A stretch of 64,000 nucleotides of DNA, from positions 1,910,501 through 1,974,500 of the forward strand of contig NZ_CP067087.1 of NCBI RefSeq assembly GCF_016745095.1, given 5' to 3'. The position numbers and the translations under genes were made by a program. A model generated the notes under the pieces. That model saw only the letters and a program-made list of their open reading frames with translations, was not told the origin of the DNA and ran no database searches. Source of the stretch: Croceicoccus sp. YJ47. GTDB taxonomy: Bacteria; Pseudomonadota; Alphaproteobacteria; Sphingomonadales; Sphingomonadaceae. The first letter of the stretch is position 1. Each line of letters begins with the position of its first letter. Positions 6,085-10,560 of the stretch are shown here, piece by piece.

Positions 6085-7485
6085 TCATTCGTGCGCGTCG
6101 GGGTCGGGCGGCAGATCGTTGCCCGCGTGCGCCGGTGCAGGCCCCGCATCCCGGCCCGGCCCGCGCCAGACCGCGATCACGCGCAGCACGAGCGCCGCCA
6201 CCGTCGAGACGAGCACCGACCACGCAATGCCGAGCGGGCCGTAGCGTTCCAGCGACACGGCAATCCCGACGAGCATGATCGCGAGCGTCGCCAGCCGGAT
6301 CACGACCAGCTGCCGCGTGCGGTCCGTCGCGAGCAGCAGCGGGTCGATCGACACGCTGCCCACCTCCAGCGCCGCGGAAATGCCCAGCAGCAGCAGCAGG
6401 GGATAGGCGGGCAGGTACTCCGCCCCGCTCATCAACAGGATGAGCGGCTTGCCCAGGAACACGAGCGCCACCGCGATCACCGCCGCGGCCAGCCCCGCCG
6501 CCGCGCTCGTCCGTTTCAGCACGTGGGCGATTTCGCGCCGCGAAAGATCGCGGTCGGCATAGGCATGGCTGCGCGCCATTTCGGTGAAGATCGCGCGGCT
6601 CAGCATCTGGCTGACCTTGGTCATGGAATTGGAAAGCTGCGCCGCGAGCCGGTAATAGCCCGCCGCGGCCGCCGCCCCGAAACTGCCCAAAAGCAGGATC
6701 GGCGCCTGCGAGATTAGCGTCGTCACGGTAAGGTTGATGTTCGAGGCGAACAGGAACCGCCACAATCCGGGGAAATTGCGGTGGATGCGAAACGGGTTGG
6801 TCAACCGTATCCGCCGCACGATGCCCGGCGCATGGCGATAGGCCAGTGCCCAGTAGGCGACCGACGTGGCCAGCTCCGACGCCATCCATGCGAGGATGAA
6901 CCCGTCGATGCTCGGCGCGAAGGCAAGCGCCACGAGCGCGCCGATCATGCGCACCACCGGCATCGCCGTTTCCGCCGCCGCGCCCGCCCCGAACCGGTCC
7001 AGCATCCGCAGCAGCCCCGTCGGCGTCGAATACAGCCCCAGCAGGAGCACCGCAGTATAGATCGCGCCCCAAAGCTGCACCACAGGTTCCCAGCCCAAAA
7101 GATCGCCGAGCCCGAAACAGATCATCGGCCCCGCGATCAGCCCGATGGCCGAGGTCACCAGATCCACCGTCAGCGTCGCACCCAGCAGCCGGCCCAGTCG
7201 GCCATCCTCGTGCGTTTCGCCATATCCATGCCCGAACTTCACCACCCCCTGCCAGCTGTCGAAGGTGATGAACCGCTTGATGAACTGCGCGATGGTGAGC
7301 ACGAGTGCGAACACGCCGAAGCCCGACGGGCCGAGCGTGCGCGTCACGATGGCGAGGTAGAACAGCGAGAGCACCGCGCCCACGCCCTTGCCCGACAGCA
7401 GCCAGCCGGAATTCTTCGCCACGCGCAGGAGCGGGGACGCACCGGACCCGGATGCCATCAATCTGCGGAGCATTGCGAATGCCAT
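6085..7485 (-). CDS. polysaccharide/oligosaccharide flippase-like membrane protein
   Basis: A 466-residue, very hydrophobic protein with about a dozen predicted membrane segments. The N-terminus (SGWLLSGKGVGAVLSLFYLA) fits the Wzx/MVF polysaccharide-exporter family, which flips lipid-linked glycans across the inner membrane. I chose the ATG at 7485, which is preceded by an AGGGG sequence, over in-frame starts further upstream that would run into the divergent kinase gene. No glycosyltransferase or polymerase gene is adjacent, so the exported glycan cannot be inferred. It is divergent from the lipid-kinase pair with about 120 bp between. Confidence 0.85.
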   Translation of the reverse strand: MAFAMLRRLMASGSGASPLLRVAKNSGWLLSGKGVGAVLSLFYLAIVTRTLGPSGFGVFALVLTIAQFIKRFITFDSWQGVVKFGHGYGETHEDGRLGRLLGATLTVDLVTSAIGLIAGPMICFGLGDLLGWEPVVQLWGAIYTAVLLLGLYSTPTGLLRMLDRFGAGAAAETAMPVVRMIGALVALAFAPSIDGFILAWMASELATSVAYWALAYRHAPGIVRRIRLTNPFRIHRNFPGLWRFLFASNINLTVTTLISQAPILLLGSFGAAAAAGYYRLAAQLSNSMTKVSQMLSRAIFTEMARSHAYADRDLSRREIAHVLKRTSAAAGLAAAVIAVALVFLGKPLILLMSGAEYLPAYPLLLLLGISAALEVGSVSIDPLLLATDRTRQLVVIRLATLAIMLVGIAVSLERYGPLGIAWSVLVSTVAALVLRVIAVWRGPGRDAGPAPAHAGNDLPPDPDAHE

Positions 7486-7606
7486 GCGCGCCCCTATCCC
7501 GGCGAGGCGGAAAATGCCCAGCCTTTTTTCGCCCGCGCACGCCCCGCCTTTTTCCGCCCGCGCGCGCAATGCGTTTGCAGGGGTGATTTGCGCATCGCTT
7601 GCCGCT

Positions 7607-8605
7607 ATGGCGCGCAGGGTGAACGCCCGCCATCCCATCGAACCCGCCGCCGATCCGCGCAAGGGCCGGATCGTCGTCGTGTGCAATCCGCGCAGCCACC
7701 GCATCCGCGCGCGCAGCCTGGCCGTGCCCGACGGGGTGTGCGTCGTCGATCCGCGCACGCGCGGCGACCTGCACGCGATCCTCGCGGAACTCGCGCGCAG
7801 CGACGTGTCGCTTGTGGTCATTGCGGGCGGGGACGGGACCATCCGCGACGTGTTGTCCTGCGGCGGATCGCTCTGGGCATCGGGGGGCGGGCGGGCGGTC
7901 GCCATCCTGCCCAAGGGCAAGACCAATGCGCTCGCCATGGATCTTGGCATCCCGCGCGACTGGGAAACGGCCGATGCGATCCGCGCCTGGCATGACGGGC
8001 GCGGCGCCATTCGCCCCCCAATCGAGGTGGTGCACAACGACGCGCCTGCCGATGAGCGCGAGCCCGTGCGCGGCTTTCTTTTCGGGGCAGGAGCCTTCGT
8101 CGATGCGACCGACATGGCGCAGACGACGCATCGCATGGGCGCGTTCAACAACCTCGCCGTGGCGCTCTCGACGGCGGGCACGGTCGCGCGCGTGGCGTTC
8201 GGGGGCGACAATTCCCCTTCGCGCGCGGGCAAGCGGATGCGAATCCACTATGGCGAGGATGCGGAACCCATGCATGGTGCCGCCCTCCACAGCGATGCGA
8301 TGCGCTTCATCATGCTGGCGACGACGATGCACCGCATGCCGATGGGCGTGCGCCCGTTCGGCGATCCGCGCGGGGGCTTGAAAACGCTTGTCGTGGATGC
8401 GCCGCCGCGCCGTTTCATGCGGAATTTCGCCGCCATCGTGCGCGGCAGCACGGCGGAGCGGCTGGAACGCGATGGCATGCACCGGGTCGATGCCAGGAGC
8501 ATGGAAATCGATCTCGACGGGGGCTTCATCCTCGATGGGGAGCGTTTCGATCCGGGCCGCTATACCTTGCGCGAAGGTGCGCCGATCCGGTTCGTCACGC
8601 CGTGA
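7607..8605 (+). CDS. diacylglycerol kinase-like (DAGK catalytic domain) lipid kinase
   Basis: A 332-residue protein of the DAGK/YegS/LCB5 family, which phosphorylates diacylglycerol or a sphingoid-type lipid with ATP. Visible are the N-terminal VCNPRS strand-loop (25-30) and the nucleotide-binding GGDGT motif at 74-78, followed by LPKGKTNALA, the family's conserved loop. I chose the ATG at 7607; in-frame starts at 7388 and 7514 would add a compositionally odd extension, and the first would overlap the flippase gene. Its stop overlaps the GTG start of the next gene (GTGA), so the two are probably translated together. That neighbour looks like a CDP-diacylglycerol synthase, which points to phosphatidic acid as the product. 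Confidence 0.85.
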   Translation: MARRVNARHPIEPAADPRKGRIVVVCNPRSHRIRARSLAVPDGVCVVDPRTRGDLHAILAELARSDVSLVVIAGGDGTIRDVLSCGGSLWASGGGRAVAILPKGKTNALAMDLGIPRDWETADAIRAWHDGRGAIRPPIEVVHNDAPADEREPVRGFLFGAGAFVDATDMAQTTHRMGAFNNLAVALSTAGTVARVAFGGDNSPSRAGKRMRIHYGEDAEPMHGAALHSDAMRFIMLATTMHRMPMGVRPFGDPRGGLKTLVVDAPPRRFMRNFAAIVRGSTAERLERDGMHRVDARSMEIDLDGGFILDGERFDPGRYTLREGAPIRFVTP

Positions 8606-9543
8606 GTGCGGATCGCTCCGATCTCGCCGCGCGGGTCGCGGCGGGGCTGCGTGCGCCGGTGCGCGATGAAATCCGCGCATTTGCCGCATATCTGGCCCGG
8701 CATTACGATGCGCGCGCGGTGCTGTTCTACGGGTCGAATTTGCGGAGCGGGTCGCTCGACGGGGTGCTCGATTTCTACGTGCTGACCGCCGGGGGGCGTG
8801 AACGCGGGTTGTGGCCGCGCGTCGCCTATCACGAATATGCCCATGCGGGGGAGGAGATGCGCGCCAAGGTCGCGGTGATGACGCTCGCCACCTTTGCCCA
8901 TGCCGCCACCGGGCGCCATGTCGATACGACGATCTGGGCGCGCTTCGTGCAGCCGGTCGCGCTTGCCTGGACAGATGGGGAGGATGCCCGCGACGCGGTG
9001 CGCGGGGCGATCGGCGACGCGGTGATCACCGCCGCGACGGTCGCCGCCTCGCTCGGCCCGGATGAGGGGACGGAGCGCGATTACTGGCAGGCGTTGTTCG
9101 CCGCGACCTACCGCGCCGAACTGCGGGTGGAAAAGCCCGGGCGCGAGCAGCAGATCCTCGATTTCGGGGCGGATCATTTCGACGGGCTGATGATTGCCGG
9201 GTGGACGGCGGCGGGGATCGACCATGACCGGCGCGGCGCCATCCTGCGCCCCCATATGCCGGAGGCGATGCGCGATGAAACGCGCGCCCGCTGGCACCGG
9301 CGGCGGCGGATGGGCAAGCCGCTCAATATCGTGCGGCTGTTGCGCGCGGCCACCACCTTCGACGGGGGCGCGCGCTATCTTGCGTGGAAAGTGCACCGGC
9401 ACAGCGGGATCACCGTGCCGCTCACCTCCTTTCGCGAACGGCACCCGCTGCTATGCGCGCCGGTGCTGGTCGCGGGTTATTGGCGCGAGCGGCGCCGGAT
9501 GCGCCGCGCCGCGGATCAGTCGTCGTCCTCGACCCGTTCGTAA
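8602..9543 (+). CDS. Tam41/Mmp37-like nucleotidyltransferase (possible phosphatidate cytidylyltransferase)
   Basis: A 313-residue protein starting with GTG overlapping the kinase stop. It has no signal peptide or clear membrane span. By eye it follows the mitochondrial Tam41 CDP-diacylglycerol synthase along its length: the nucleotidyltransferase element FYGS (42-45) with an acidic residue in VLDFYVL (Asp57), a Lys/Val-rich strand near 89-93, ARFVQPV at 113-119 where Tam41 proteins have AGRL-KPV, a YWQALFAATYRAELR segment, and a C-terminal stretch near 263-280 that matches the K-G-hydrophobic-T-A-G-like end. Tam41 converts phosphatidate and CTP to CDP-diacylglycerol at a membrane surface. The kinase partner supports this. 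No biochemical role for a bacterial member is known to me. Its 3' end overlaps the next, convergent gene by 28 bp. Confidence 0.65.
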   Translation: MSADRSDLAARVAAGLRAPVRDEIRAFAAYLARHYDARAVLFYGSNLRSGSLDGVLDFYVLTAGGRERGLWPRVAYHEYAHAGEEMRAKVAVMTLATFAHAATGRHVDTTIWARFVQPVALAWTDGEDARDAVRGAIGDAVITAATVAASLGPDEGTERDYWQALFAATYRAELRVEKPGREQQILDFGADHFDGLMIAGWTAAGIDHDRRGAILRPHMPEAMRDETRARWHRRRRMGKPLNIVRLLRAATTFDGGARYLAWKVHRHSGITVPLTSFRERHPLLCAPVLVAGYWRERRRMRRAADQSSSSTRS

Positions 9544-9941
9544 GGGACGAAATCGCCAAGGAACACGACGCCGCGCATGAAGCCGGTCTGATCGACCATG
9601 CGGATGGTATCGACGCTGCACAGCTGATTCAGCACCGTATCGGTGACCATGATGTCATTGTCGTCGAGCGCCTCAAGCCCGCTTTCCGGACGGTTGACGT
9701 AAAGCTTGCTGCCGACCTCCCACACGATCGCGGTTTCGTCGTAGATCGTCGTGCGCTGATTGCGGTAATTGGGAATGCAACGCACCGGTTCGCCCGCGAC
9801 GCGCCCTTCCAGCTTCTCGGCAAGCTTGGCCTCGGCTTTCGCCCGGACGCGGTCCTGCCGGGTTTCGTCGGTGTCGGCCATGGCTGGCGCGGAAAGCAGA
9901 GCGCCCGCGGCCATGGCGACGGTCAGTGTCTTCTTGAACAT
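9516..9941 (-). CDS. small secreted protein of unknown function
   Basis: A 141-residue protein. A signal peptide is evident (MFKKTLTVAMAAGALLSAPAMA with an AMA cleavage site). The mature part is charged and has two cysteines (one in RCIPNY, one in LCSVD) that could form a disulfide. The start at 9941 has a good AGGAG Shine-Dalgarno, so the longer upstream frame is not used. I do not recognise a family. It is convergent with the Tam41-like gene; the two coding ends overlap by 28 bp. Confidence 0.8.
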   Translation of the reverse strand: MFKKTLTVAMAAGALLSAPAMADTDETRQDRVRAKAEAKLAEKLEGRVAGEPVRCIPNYRNQRTTIYDETAIVWEVGSKLYVNRPESGLEALDDNDIMVTDTVLNQLCSVDTIRMVDQTGFMRGVVFLGDFVPYERVEDDD

Positions 9942-10005
9942 ATCTCGCTCCTTCGTTTCGCAAACCATACGCGATTCGGTGTTAACCATCCATGACGCGC
10001 GGCCC

Positions 10006-10560
10006 CTACCAATCGTTTCCCGCCGCGATGGCGCGCTCTTCCGCCGCGCTGCTCTGCTTACCGAGCACGTCGTTGCGATGGGGAAAACGGCCAAAGCGCG
10101 CGATCATGCGGTAATGCACGCGGGCGAAGGACAGCACCTCGCGGTTCCCGAGCCGCGCGAACAGGCGGAGAGAGCGGCGCTGATCCGCGATGGCTTCGCT
10201 GTGCATGAGCGGCATGAGGATGAATTGCCGTTCCGCCGTGGTCAGCCCCCGGTCCCAGCCGCGCCGCAGGACACCATCGGTAATCGCGCGGGCCAGCGGA
10301 TCGTTCGCAAAGGCGCGCGGATCGTCGCGGAACAGGTTGCGCGGCACCTGATCGAACAGGAGTATCGCCGCGCGCGCGATGTCGGGCGTGTGCAGGAACG
10401 CGCGCGCCGGCTGCCCTCTCAACCTCGCCCATTCGCGGGCAAATCGCCGCCGCAGCAGGGCATCGACGTCGTCGCCGCCCCCGAACCAGTCGCGCGGCGA
10501 CAGCACGCCGAACCACACATGCAGCATGTCCGCCGCCCACGGCCGGGGTGCGAGCGCCAT
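10006..10560 (-). CDS. DUF924 family protein
   Basis: A 184-residue protein typical of DUF924: an N-terminal helix ending in VLSPRDWFGGGDDVD, a central LLFDQVPRNLFR motif which is the family hallmark, and MPLMHSE and HRNDVLG further on. Function is unknown; the fold is all-helical and TPR-like in related structures. The start at 10560 lies 5 bp after the position where tldD would end if its frameshift were repaired, so the two form an operon. Confidence 0.88.
   Translation of the reverse strand: MALAPRPWAADMLHVWFGVLSPRDWFGGGDDVDALLRRRFAREWARLRGQPARAFLHTPDIARAAILLFDQVPRNLFRDDPRAFANDPLARAITDGVLRRGWDRGLTTAERQFILMPLMHSEAIADQRRSLRLFARLGNREVLSFARVHYRMIARFGRFPHRNDVLGKQSSAAEERAIAAGNDW

Follow-up and report, generated by a model that had tools for sequence, protein, structure and literature searches.

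The closest described systems to the gene pair analysed here are the ceramide phosphoglycerate (CPG) pathway of Caulobacter crescentus and the mitochondrial enzyme Tam41. In the former, CC_1160 (CpgB) is a ceramide kinase, and the criteria given for such a kinase are a DAGK domain with GGDG and without the eukaryotic CxxxCxxC; the sections of the same paper on activity report that CpgB phosphorylated diacylglycerol comparably to ceramide in vitro, giving phosphatidate, and that cpgB deletion left phosphatidate in Caulobacter unchanged (PMC10331486). The neighbouring gene encodes CpgC (CC_1161 / CCNA_01219), which is required for CPG; its deletion removes CPG and, in the sections describing this step, CC_1160 and CC_1161 are needed and no further enzyme is known (PMC11324152). 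That 2024 paper (PMC11324152) already reports a CDP-DAG-synthase domain from InterPro in CC_1161 and speculates that this protein makes a ceramide activated with a nucleotide; its main text leaves Tam41 unmentioned. The parts of two later papers that deal with CpgC still describe its mechanism as unidentified (PMC12275187; 2026 preprint PMC13228409), and our literature search for CDP-ceramide together with bacterial sphingolipid found no paper.

Tam41/TAMM41 is the mitochondrial CDP-DAG synthase (PF09139; structures 6ig2 and 6ig4). Its architecture is described as a nucleotidyltransferase (NTase) domain, a winged helix and an amphipathic C-terminal helix (PMC7018664). The same paper is reported to show that yeast Tam41, when co-expressed, lets an E. 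coli strain grow that lacks CdsA and over-produces YnbB, from which it makes MPIase (PMC7018664). The relevant section of another paper states that, of the three acidic residues usual in NTases, Tam41 keeps just one (PMC11646218). Finding a Tam41 relative in a bacterium is not novel in itself, as the structure of a Firmicutes Tam41 (7ecd; Kimura 2022 as cited in the section consulted of PMC11646218) is already in the PDB. Here we propose that a pair of overlapping genes in a sphingomonad is probably a divergent CpgB–CpgC module, whose second, 313-aa protein would move CMP from CTP to ceramide-1-phosphate, giving CDP-ceramide.

The gene pair and its conservation

The window, a 64,000-nucleotide stretch from the single 3.35-Mb contig of the Croceicoccus sp. 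YJ47 genome, carries the pair on its forward strand. The kinase gene (7607..8605, +) starts with ATG at 7607 and stops with TGA at 8603-8605; the second gene (8602..9543, +) starts with GTG at 8602, ends at 9543 and encodes the 313-aa product, so that the kinase stop and the start of the putative cytidylyltransferase overlap in GTGA (8602..8605, +). Both ORFs and the shared bases were read directly, and the position and overlap of the pair are as an earlier note on this DNA had given them. The first product is a lipid kinase with a DAGK catalytic domain (PF00781, E 2e-12), CpgB-like and probably a ceramide kinase: GGDGT stands at residues 74-78, GGDGT and DGE are kept in the family alignment, and no CxxxCxxC was found on reading the sequence. 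The nearest named relatives of the 313-aa protein are in Croceicoccus records, with 96% identity to that of C. hydrothermalis.

Both genes encode conserved proteins. Of 199 genomes from the same bacterial family, 158 have a relative of the 313-aa protein (a single match in 155 of these and two matches in three), and the CpgC-like gene was found in 42 of the 385 genomes sampled from the class. By profile, the kinase gene precedes the CpgC-like gene in the same orientation in 152/155 family loci, a set that comprises 150 distinct sequences (five are present in both collections), includes the window's own locus and contains some loci that also built the profiles; an earlier tblastn count had given 133/134. 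These counts bear out the tight coupling to a DAGK-type kinase that the earlier note had claimed, and the conservation of the pair beyond the window. The exceptions are L065, which lies at a contig end with 45 kinase residues visible by tblastn, and L140 and L150, where the stretch has a CpgC-like gene but no kinase could be detected. The gene immediately upstream of the CpgC-like one in L140 encodes a CDP-alcohol phosphotransferase (PF01066).

Across 30 diverse members of the 313-aa family, 41 positions do not vary; they include F42 Y43 G44 S45, L56 D57 F58 Y59, A88 K89, W112 A113 R114 F115, Q117 P118, T169, E173, R175 and E177. The FYGS, LDFY (with Asp D57) and WARF-x-QP elements are thus invariant, TYxAExR is invariant or nearly so, and the motifs singled out by the earlier note (FYGS, the Asp in LDFY, ARF-QP) are conserved features of the family. 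D57 is invariant in the family alignment A1, with Y59 at the second place of the usual DxD; by sequence position, this pattern would be in line with the account of the acidic residues of Tam41 in the cited section of PMC11646218. The clade of the window protein has FYGSN and a short loop after LDFY, in which it differs from the FYGSC clade.

Several other genes lie around the pair. A Polysacc_synt (PF01943) flippase-type gene at 6085-7521 (-) is divergent from the kinase, and its relatives occur in the flanks of 17/80 named loci in varying orientation. Next to the pair, at 9516-10094 (-), is a gene whose small product has a signal-like stretch and no match in Pfam; it was found in nine fetched loci (L001-L004, L055-L059). 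A different small protein, a DUF2141 (PF09912) product with a signal-like N terminus, is encoded near the pair in 121/154 loci (L001-L154). The loci that have it run from L005 to L142 (for example, L107:7776-8297 (-) and L041:903-1502 (+)), and its orientation differs between the two sphingomonad groups; it is absent from the nine loci closest to the window (again L001-L004 and L055-L059) and present in L091, named Croceicoccus. We considered whether the 9516-10094 product is this DUF2141 neighbour and rejected the idea, as the two proteins are unrelated. A role of the DUF2141 protein in sphingolipid handling is possible.

Predicted fold and relationship to Tam41

The earlier note had likened the 313-aa protein to the Tam41 family by eye. 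Profile searches did not recover that likeness for the window protein, which matched nothing in Pfam, NCBIfam or the PDB sequences, the Tam41/Mmp37 family included. Likewise, A1 gave no Tam41 match in Pfam or the PDB, PF09139 found nothing in the window genome even at E 10, and PF09139 was absent from the 13 families listed when 30 family members were scanned. Because neither the window protein nor the members scanned reach the cut-off, we advise against assigning the protein to PF09139. The result is an annotation gap, in that a protein with relatives in 158/199 sampled genomes of its bacterial family has no Pfam or NCBIfam match.

Structure prediction gave a different view of the relationship. 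An AlphaFold2 model of the 313-aa protein, built with 45 sequences, had a mean pLDDT of 90.9 and a pTM of 0.88, and a Foldseek search of the PDB with this model placed Tam41 at ranks 1-5. The S. pombe structures 6ig4 and 6ig2 matched with E values of 6e-8 (6ig4) to 1.7e-6, and Firmicutes 7ecd matched with an E value of 7.7e-6 and the best TM-score among the matches (0.50/0.57; TMq 0.50). The Tam41 structural alignments span 264-286 columns with 10-13% identity and a Foldseek TM of about 0.5, a loose match. With identity this low, the likeness is a remote one. The model has strands at 37-43, 55-62, 73-81, 84-94 and 119-124, followed by helices, a hairpin at 207-218 and a helix at 282-311; by our own assignment, the predicted order of an NTase sheet, then helices and a beta hairpin, then a basic helix at the C terminus fits the Tam41 architecture, and this last helix could, in the model, lie on the membrane. 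The nucleotidyltransferase core, whose absence would have counted against the earlier note, is thus present in the prediction.

A sequence bridge between the two families came from a search of 398 phylum genomes with PF09139, which returned three weak matches, none above the cut-off. One of the three, L155, is a member of the 313-aa family (296 positions aligned with the window protein at 32% identity, E 5e-32) and carries the same kinase upstream; PF09139 is its sole Pfam match at E values up to 10 (E 1.4e-4, 21.8 bits against a cut-off of 24). The other two, L156 and L157, we took as chance matches, lying inside other reading frames that resemble sigma factors. When the L155 protein was compared with S. 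pombe Tam41 by phmmer, WARFAQPSRLL was aligned with LAGRFQKPVVIL at E 1.6, below a chance match. Comparison of A1 with two Tam41 segments by hhalign gave the same register with E 0.17 and a probability of 0.3%, and A4, a more diverse alignment that includes L155, again gave this register with E 5e-4 and a probability of 31%. The by-eye pairing of ARFVQPV with AGR(F/L)-KPV in the earlier note therefore reappears in the same register, through a phmmer match that is non-significant alone and two hhalign alignments. Of the checks that the earlier note had named, the profile search gave no match for the window protein, and the fold search supports the kinship, as does L155 with PF09139 as its one Pfam match. 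We conclude that the likeness to Tam41 is genuine, though distant. The window protein shares with mitochondrial Tam41 the predicted NTase, winged-helix and basic C-terminal helix elements and the aligned segments K-x-A/G-V, RF-x-(Q)P and (T/S)Y..(E/D).R, but differs in its 12-13% identity in the fold search, its lack of a significant profile match and its proposed lipid, ceramide-1-phosphate rather than phosphatidate. It shares with 7ecd a bacterial origin and the Tam41 fold; unlike the window family, 7ecd can be identified as Tam41 from its sequence, which matches an 88-aa segment of S. pombe Tam41 at E 5.7e-12.

The fold search also bears on two other readings of the protein. Aminoglycoside nucleotidyltransferases (ANT) were the next Foldseek matches (E from 8e-5, TMq 0.25-0.28) and HalB chains matched too, as would be expected of a nucleotidyltransferase from the ANT/HalB-like side of the superfamily that acts on a non-lipid substrate and sits beside the kinase by chance. 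Tam41 scores clearly better than either, however, the kinase stays upstream in 152/155 loci and the gene has a sphingolipid context, and we regard this reading as very improbable. A second reading keeps the Tam41-fold transferase and has ceramide-1-phosphate used otherwise, with another nucleotide donor or by direct glycerate-type attachment without free CDP-ceramide. The missing Tam41 profile match of the window protein would agree with it, as would the CPG step of Caulobacter, for which CC_1160 and CC_1161 are needed and the cited sections know no further enzyme (PMC11324152). Nevertheless, the nearest structures are Tam41, two of them (6ig2 and 7ecd) carrying CTP, the fold is that of nucleotidyl transfer, and direct glycerate attachment is energetically not very favourable according to the 2024 authors' discussion of the step (PMC11324152); we therefore consider such a use of ceramide-1-phosphate unlikely and favour transfer of CMP from CTP.

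Sphingolipid genes near the pair and across genomes

To place the family among known genes, ORFs were clustered in 50 loci (20 from the second sphingomonad group, 20 from the class and 10 drawn from the 80 named loci). A serine-palmitoyltransferase (SPT) match was located within the stretch in 11/20 loci of the second group (with 2.5-kb flanks), in 15/20 class loci and in 0/80 window-type loci. In locus L148, the order is AMP ligase, SDR (short-chain dehydrogenase), ACP, SPT (NF047599, 659.6 bits, cut-off 500), CpgC-like gene, DAGK kinase, CDP-OH_P transferase, calcineurin-like phosphoesterase and two LptF/LptG genes, with a match to a GNAT-domain protein 2.7 kb past the end of the stretch, at the place expected for CC_1154 (ceramide synthesis). 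In gene order, and with the exception of CC_1157, this arrangement matches C. crescentus CC_1165 to CC_1154 as laid out in the cited part of PMC11324152, in which CpgC likewise adjoins a CpgB-type kinase. Identity between the window and L148 is 38% for the protein in the cpgC position (E 7e-47) and 27% for the kinase (E 2e-22). From its position in this Caulobacter-like order, the 313-aa family would therefore be CpgC. The window locus itself lies far from SPT, unlike the CpgC locus order.

The two gene types also go together across genomes. A search of the 385 class genomes with NF047603 at E 1e-120 gave an SPT-type match in 48, five of them above the curated cut-off; some of the 48 may be non-SPT, because this threshold admits an E. 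coli gene, presumably Kbl. Among the 42 genomes with the CpgC-like gene, 41 also carry an SPT-type match; the gene occurs alone in one genome, G528, and the SPT-type match alone in seven. The Fisher p value for this co-occurrence is 9e-47, which is too small because the genomes are not independent. In the 41 genomes with both, the gene lies within 1.4 kb of the SPT-type match in 27, farther away on the same contig in five and on a different contig in nine; the window genome, with some 0.96 Mb between the pair and SPT, is among the five. We asked if the gene had simply been missed in the SPT-only genomes and rejected this explanation, as the A1 profile, run on 16 genomes (the seven SPT-only genomes, G528 and eight of the same family without a match), found the family in the already-known G528 alone. 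A full-length kinase was not found in any of the seven SPT-only genomes, and was found in all six genomes tested that carry the gene, three of the six being represented in the model used. In G528 the pair adjoins a PLP enzyme (L141:5932-7137 (-)) that shares 31% identity with the L148 SPT. Its best score is with BioF (340 bits, below that model's cut-off of 426) and not with SPT models; it may be a variant of the base-forming enzyme.

In the window genome, an SPT lies at 955861 (798.7 bits, cut-off 670), and at 1252962 there is a match (38% identity, E 1.1e-52) to the GNAT-domain protein used as query. That query is a ceramide-synthase candidate only, because it was picked by position, its GNAT match is weak (E 2.3e-4) and NCBIfam gave it no match. 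A search of this genome with one Novosphingobium query found no CpgA-like gene. Five PF01066 matches are present, none of which could be tied to the pair. Locus L166:6542-10337 (G000:C1 about 86.5-90.3 kb) has two adjacent CDP-alcohol phosphotransferases and a myo-inositol-1-phosphate synthase, together with a nucleotidyltransferase distantly like an NTP transferase near the pair elsewhere; it may be a cluster for inositol lipids and, as such, a candidate for the use of CDP-lipids.

Elsewhere in the window genome lies a CdsA-type gene (PF01148). CdsA would share with the window protein the chemistry CTP + phospho-lipid to CDP-lipid, but belongs to an unrelated integral membrane family. Its presence weighs on the role proposed in the earlier note, a route from diacylglycerol through phosphatidate to CDP-diacylglycerol, in which the pair would be a true second CDP-diacylglycerol synthase module, the kinase recycling diacylglycerol to phosphatidate for the Tam41-like enzyme. 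The closest structures are indeed CDP-DAG synthases, the partner kinase has a DAGK domain, and Caulobacter CpgB turns diacylglycerol into phosphatidate in the in vitro assays cited above (PMC10331486). A CdsA-type gene is already present, however, the gene is strongly tied to SPT-type genes, and the cited Caulobacter results are phosphatidate unaffected by cpgB deletion (PMC10331486) and CPG lost on CC_1161 deletion (PMC11324152). We thus judge a second CDP-diacylglycerol synthase to be quite unlikely and do not take that route as the likely role. With CdsA in place and the pair both tracking and neighbouring sphingolipid genes, the role points to ceramide, ceramide-1-phosphate and CDP-ceramide.

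A proposed route to CDP-ceramide

From the predicted fold, the kinase partner in the operon and the sphingolipid setting (co-occurrence with SPT, and an SPT in the window genome), we infer the substrate, the product and the next enzyme as follows. The kinase would convert (dihydro)ceramide and ATP to ceramide-1-phosphate, and the Tam41-fold, CpgC-like protein, probably a CTP:ceramide-1-phosphate cytidylyltransferase, would convert ceramide-1-phosphate and CTP to CDP-ceramide and pyrophosphate. A CDP-alcohol phosphotransferase could then swap CMP for the head group, which in Caulobacter would be glycerate or phosphoglycerate. For the broader proposal, that CpgC is a dedicated bacterial Tam41-fold CTP:ceramide-1-phosphate cytidylyltransferase widespread in alphaproteobacteria and CDP-ceramide a real metabolite, we put the chances at about even.

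The CPG pathway product CPG2 partly supports the viability of Caulobacter without LPS, as reported in the cited parts of PMC12275187 and PMC13228409. A Tam41 fold would give CpgC, a step of this pathway, a concrete reaction that can be assayed. If the proposal is true, CDP-ceramide would be the sphingolipid counterpart of CDP-diacylglycerol, reached by a kinase and a cytidylyltransferase and followed by head-group exchange, and the fold of the mitochondrial CDP-DAG synthase would serve a second lipid class, with CDP-ceramide as an activated lipid.
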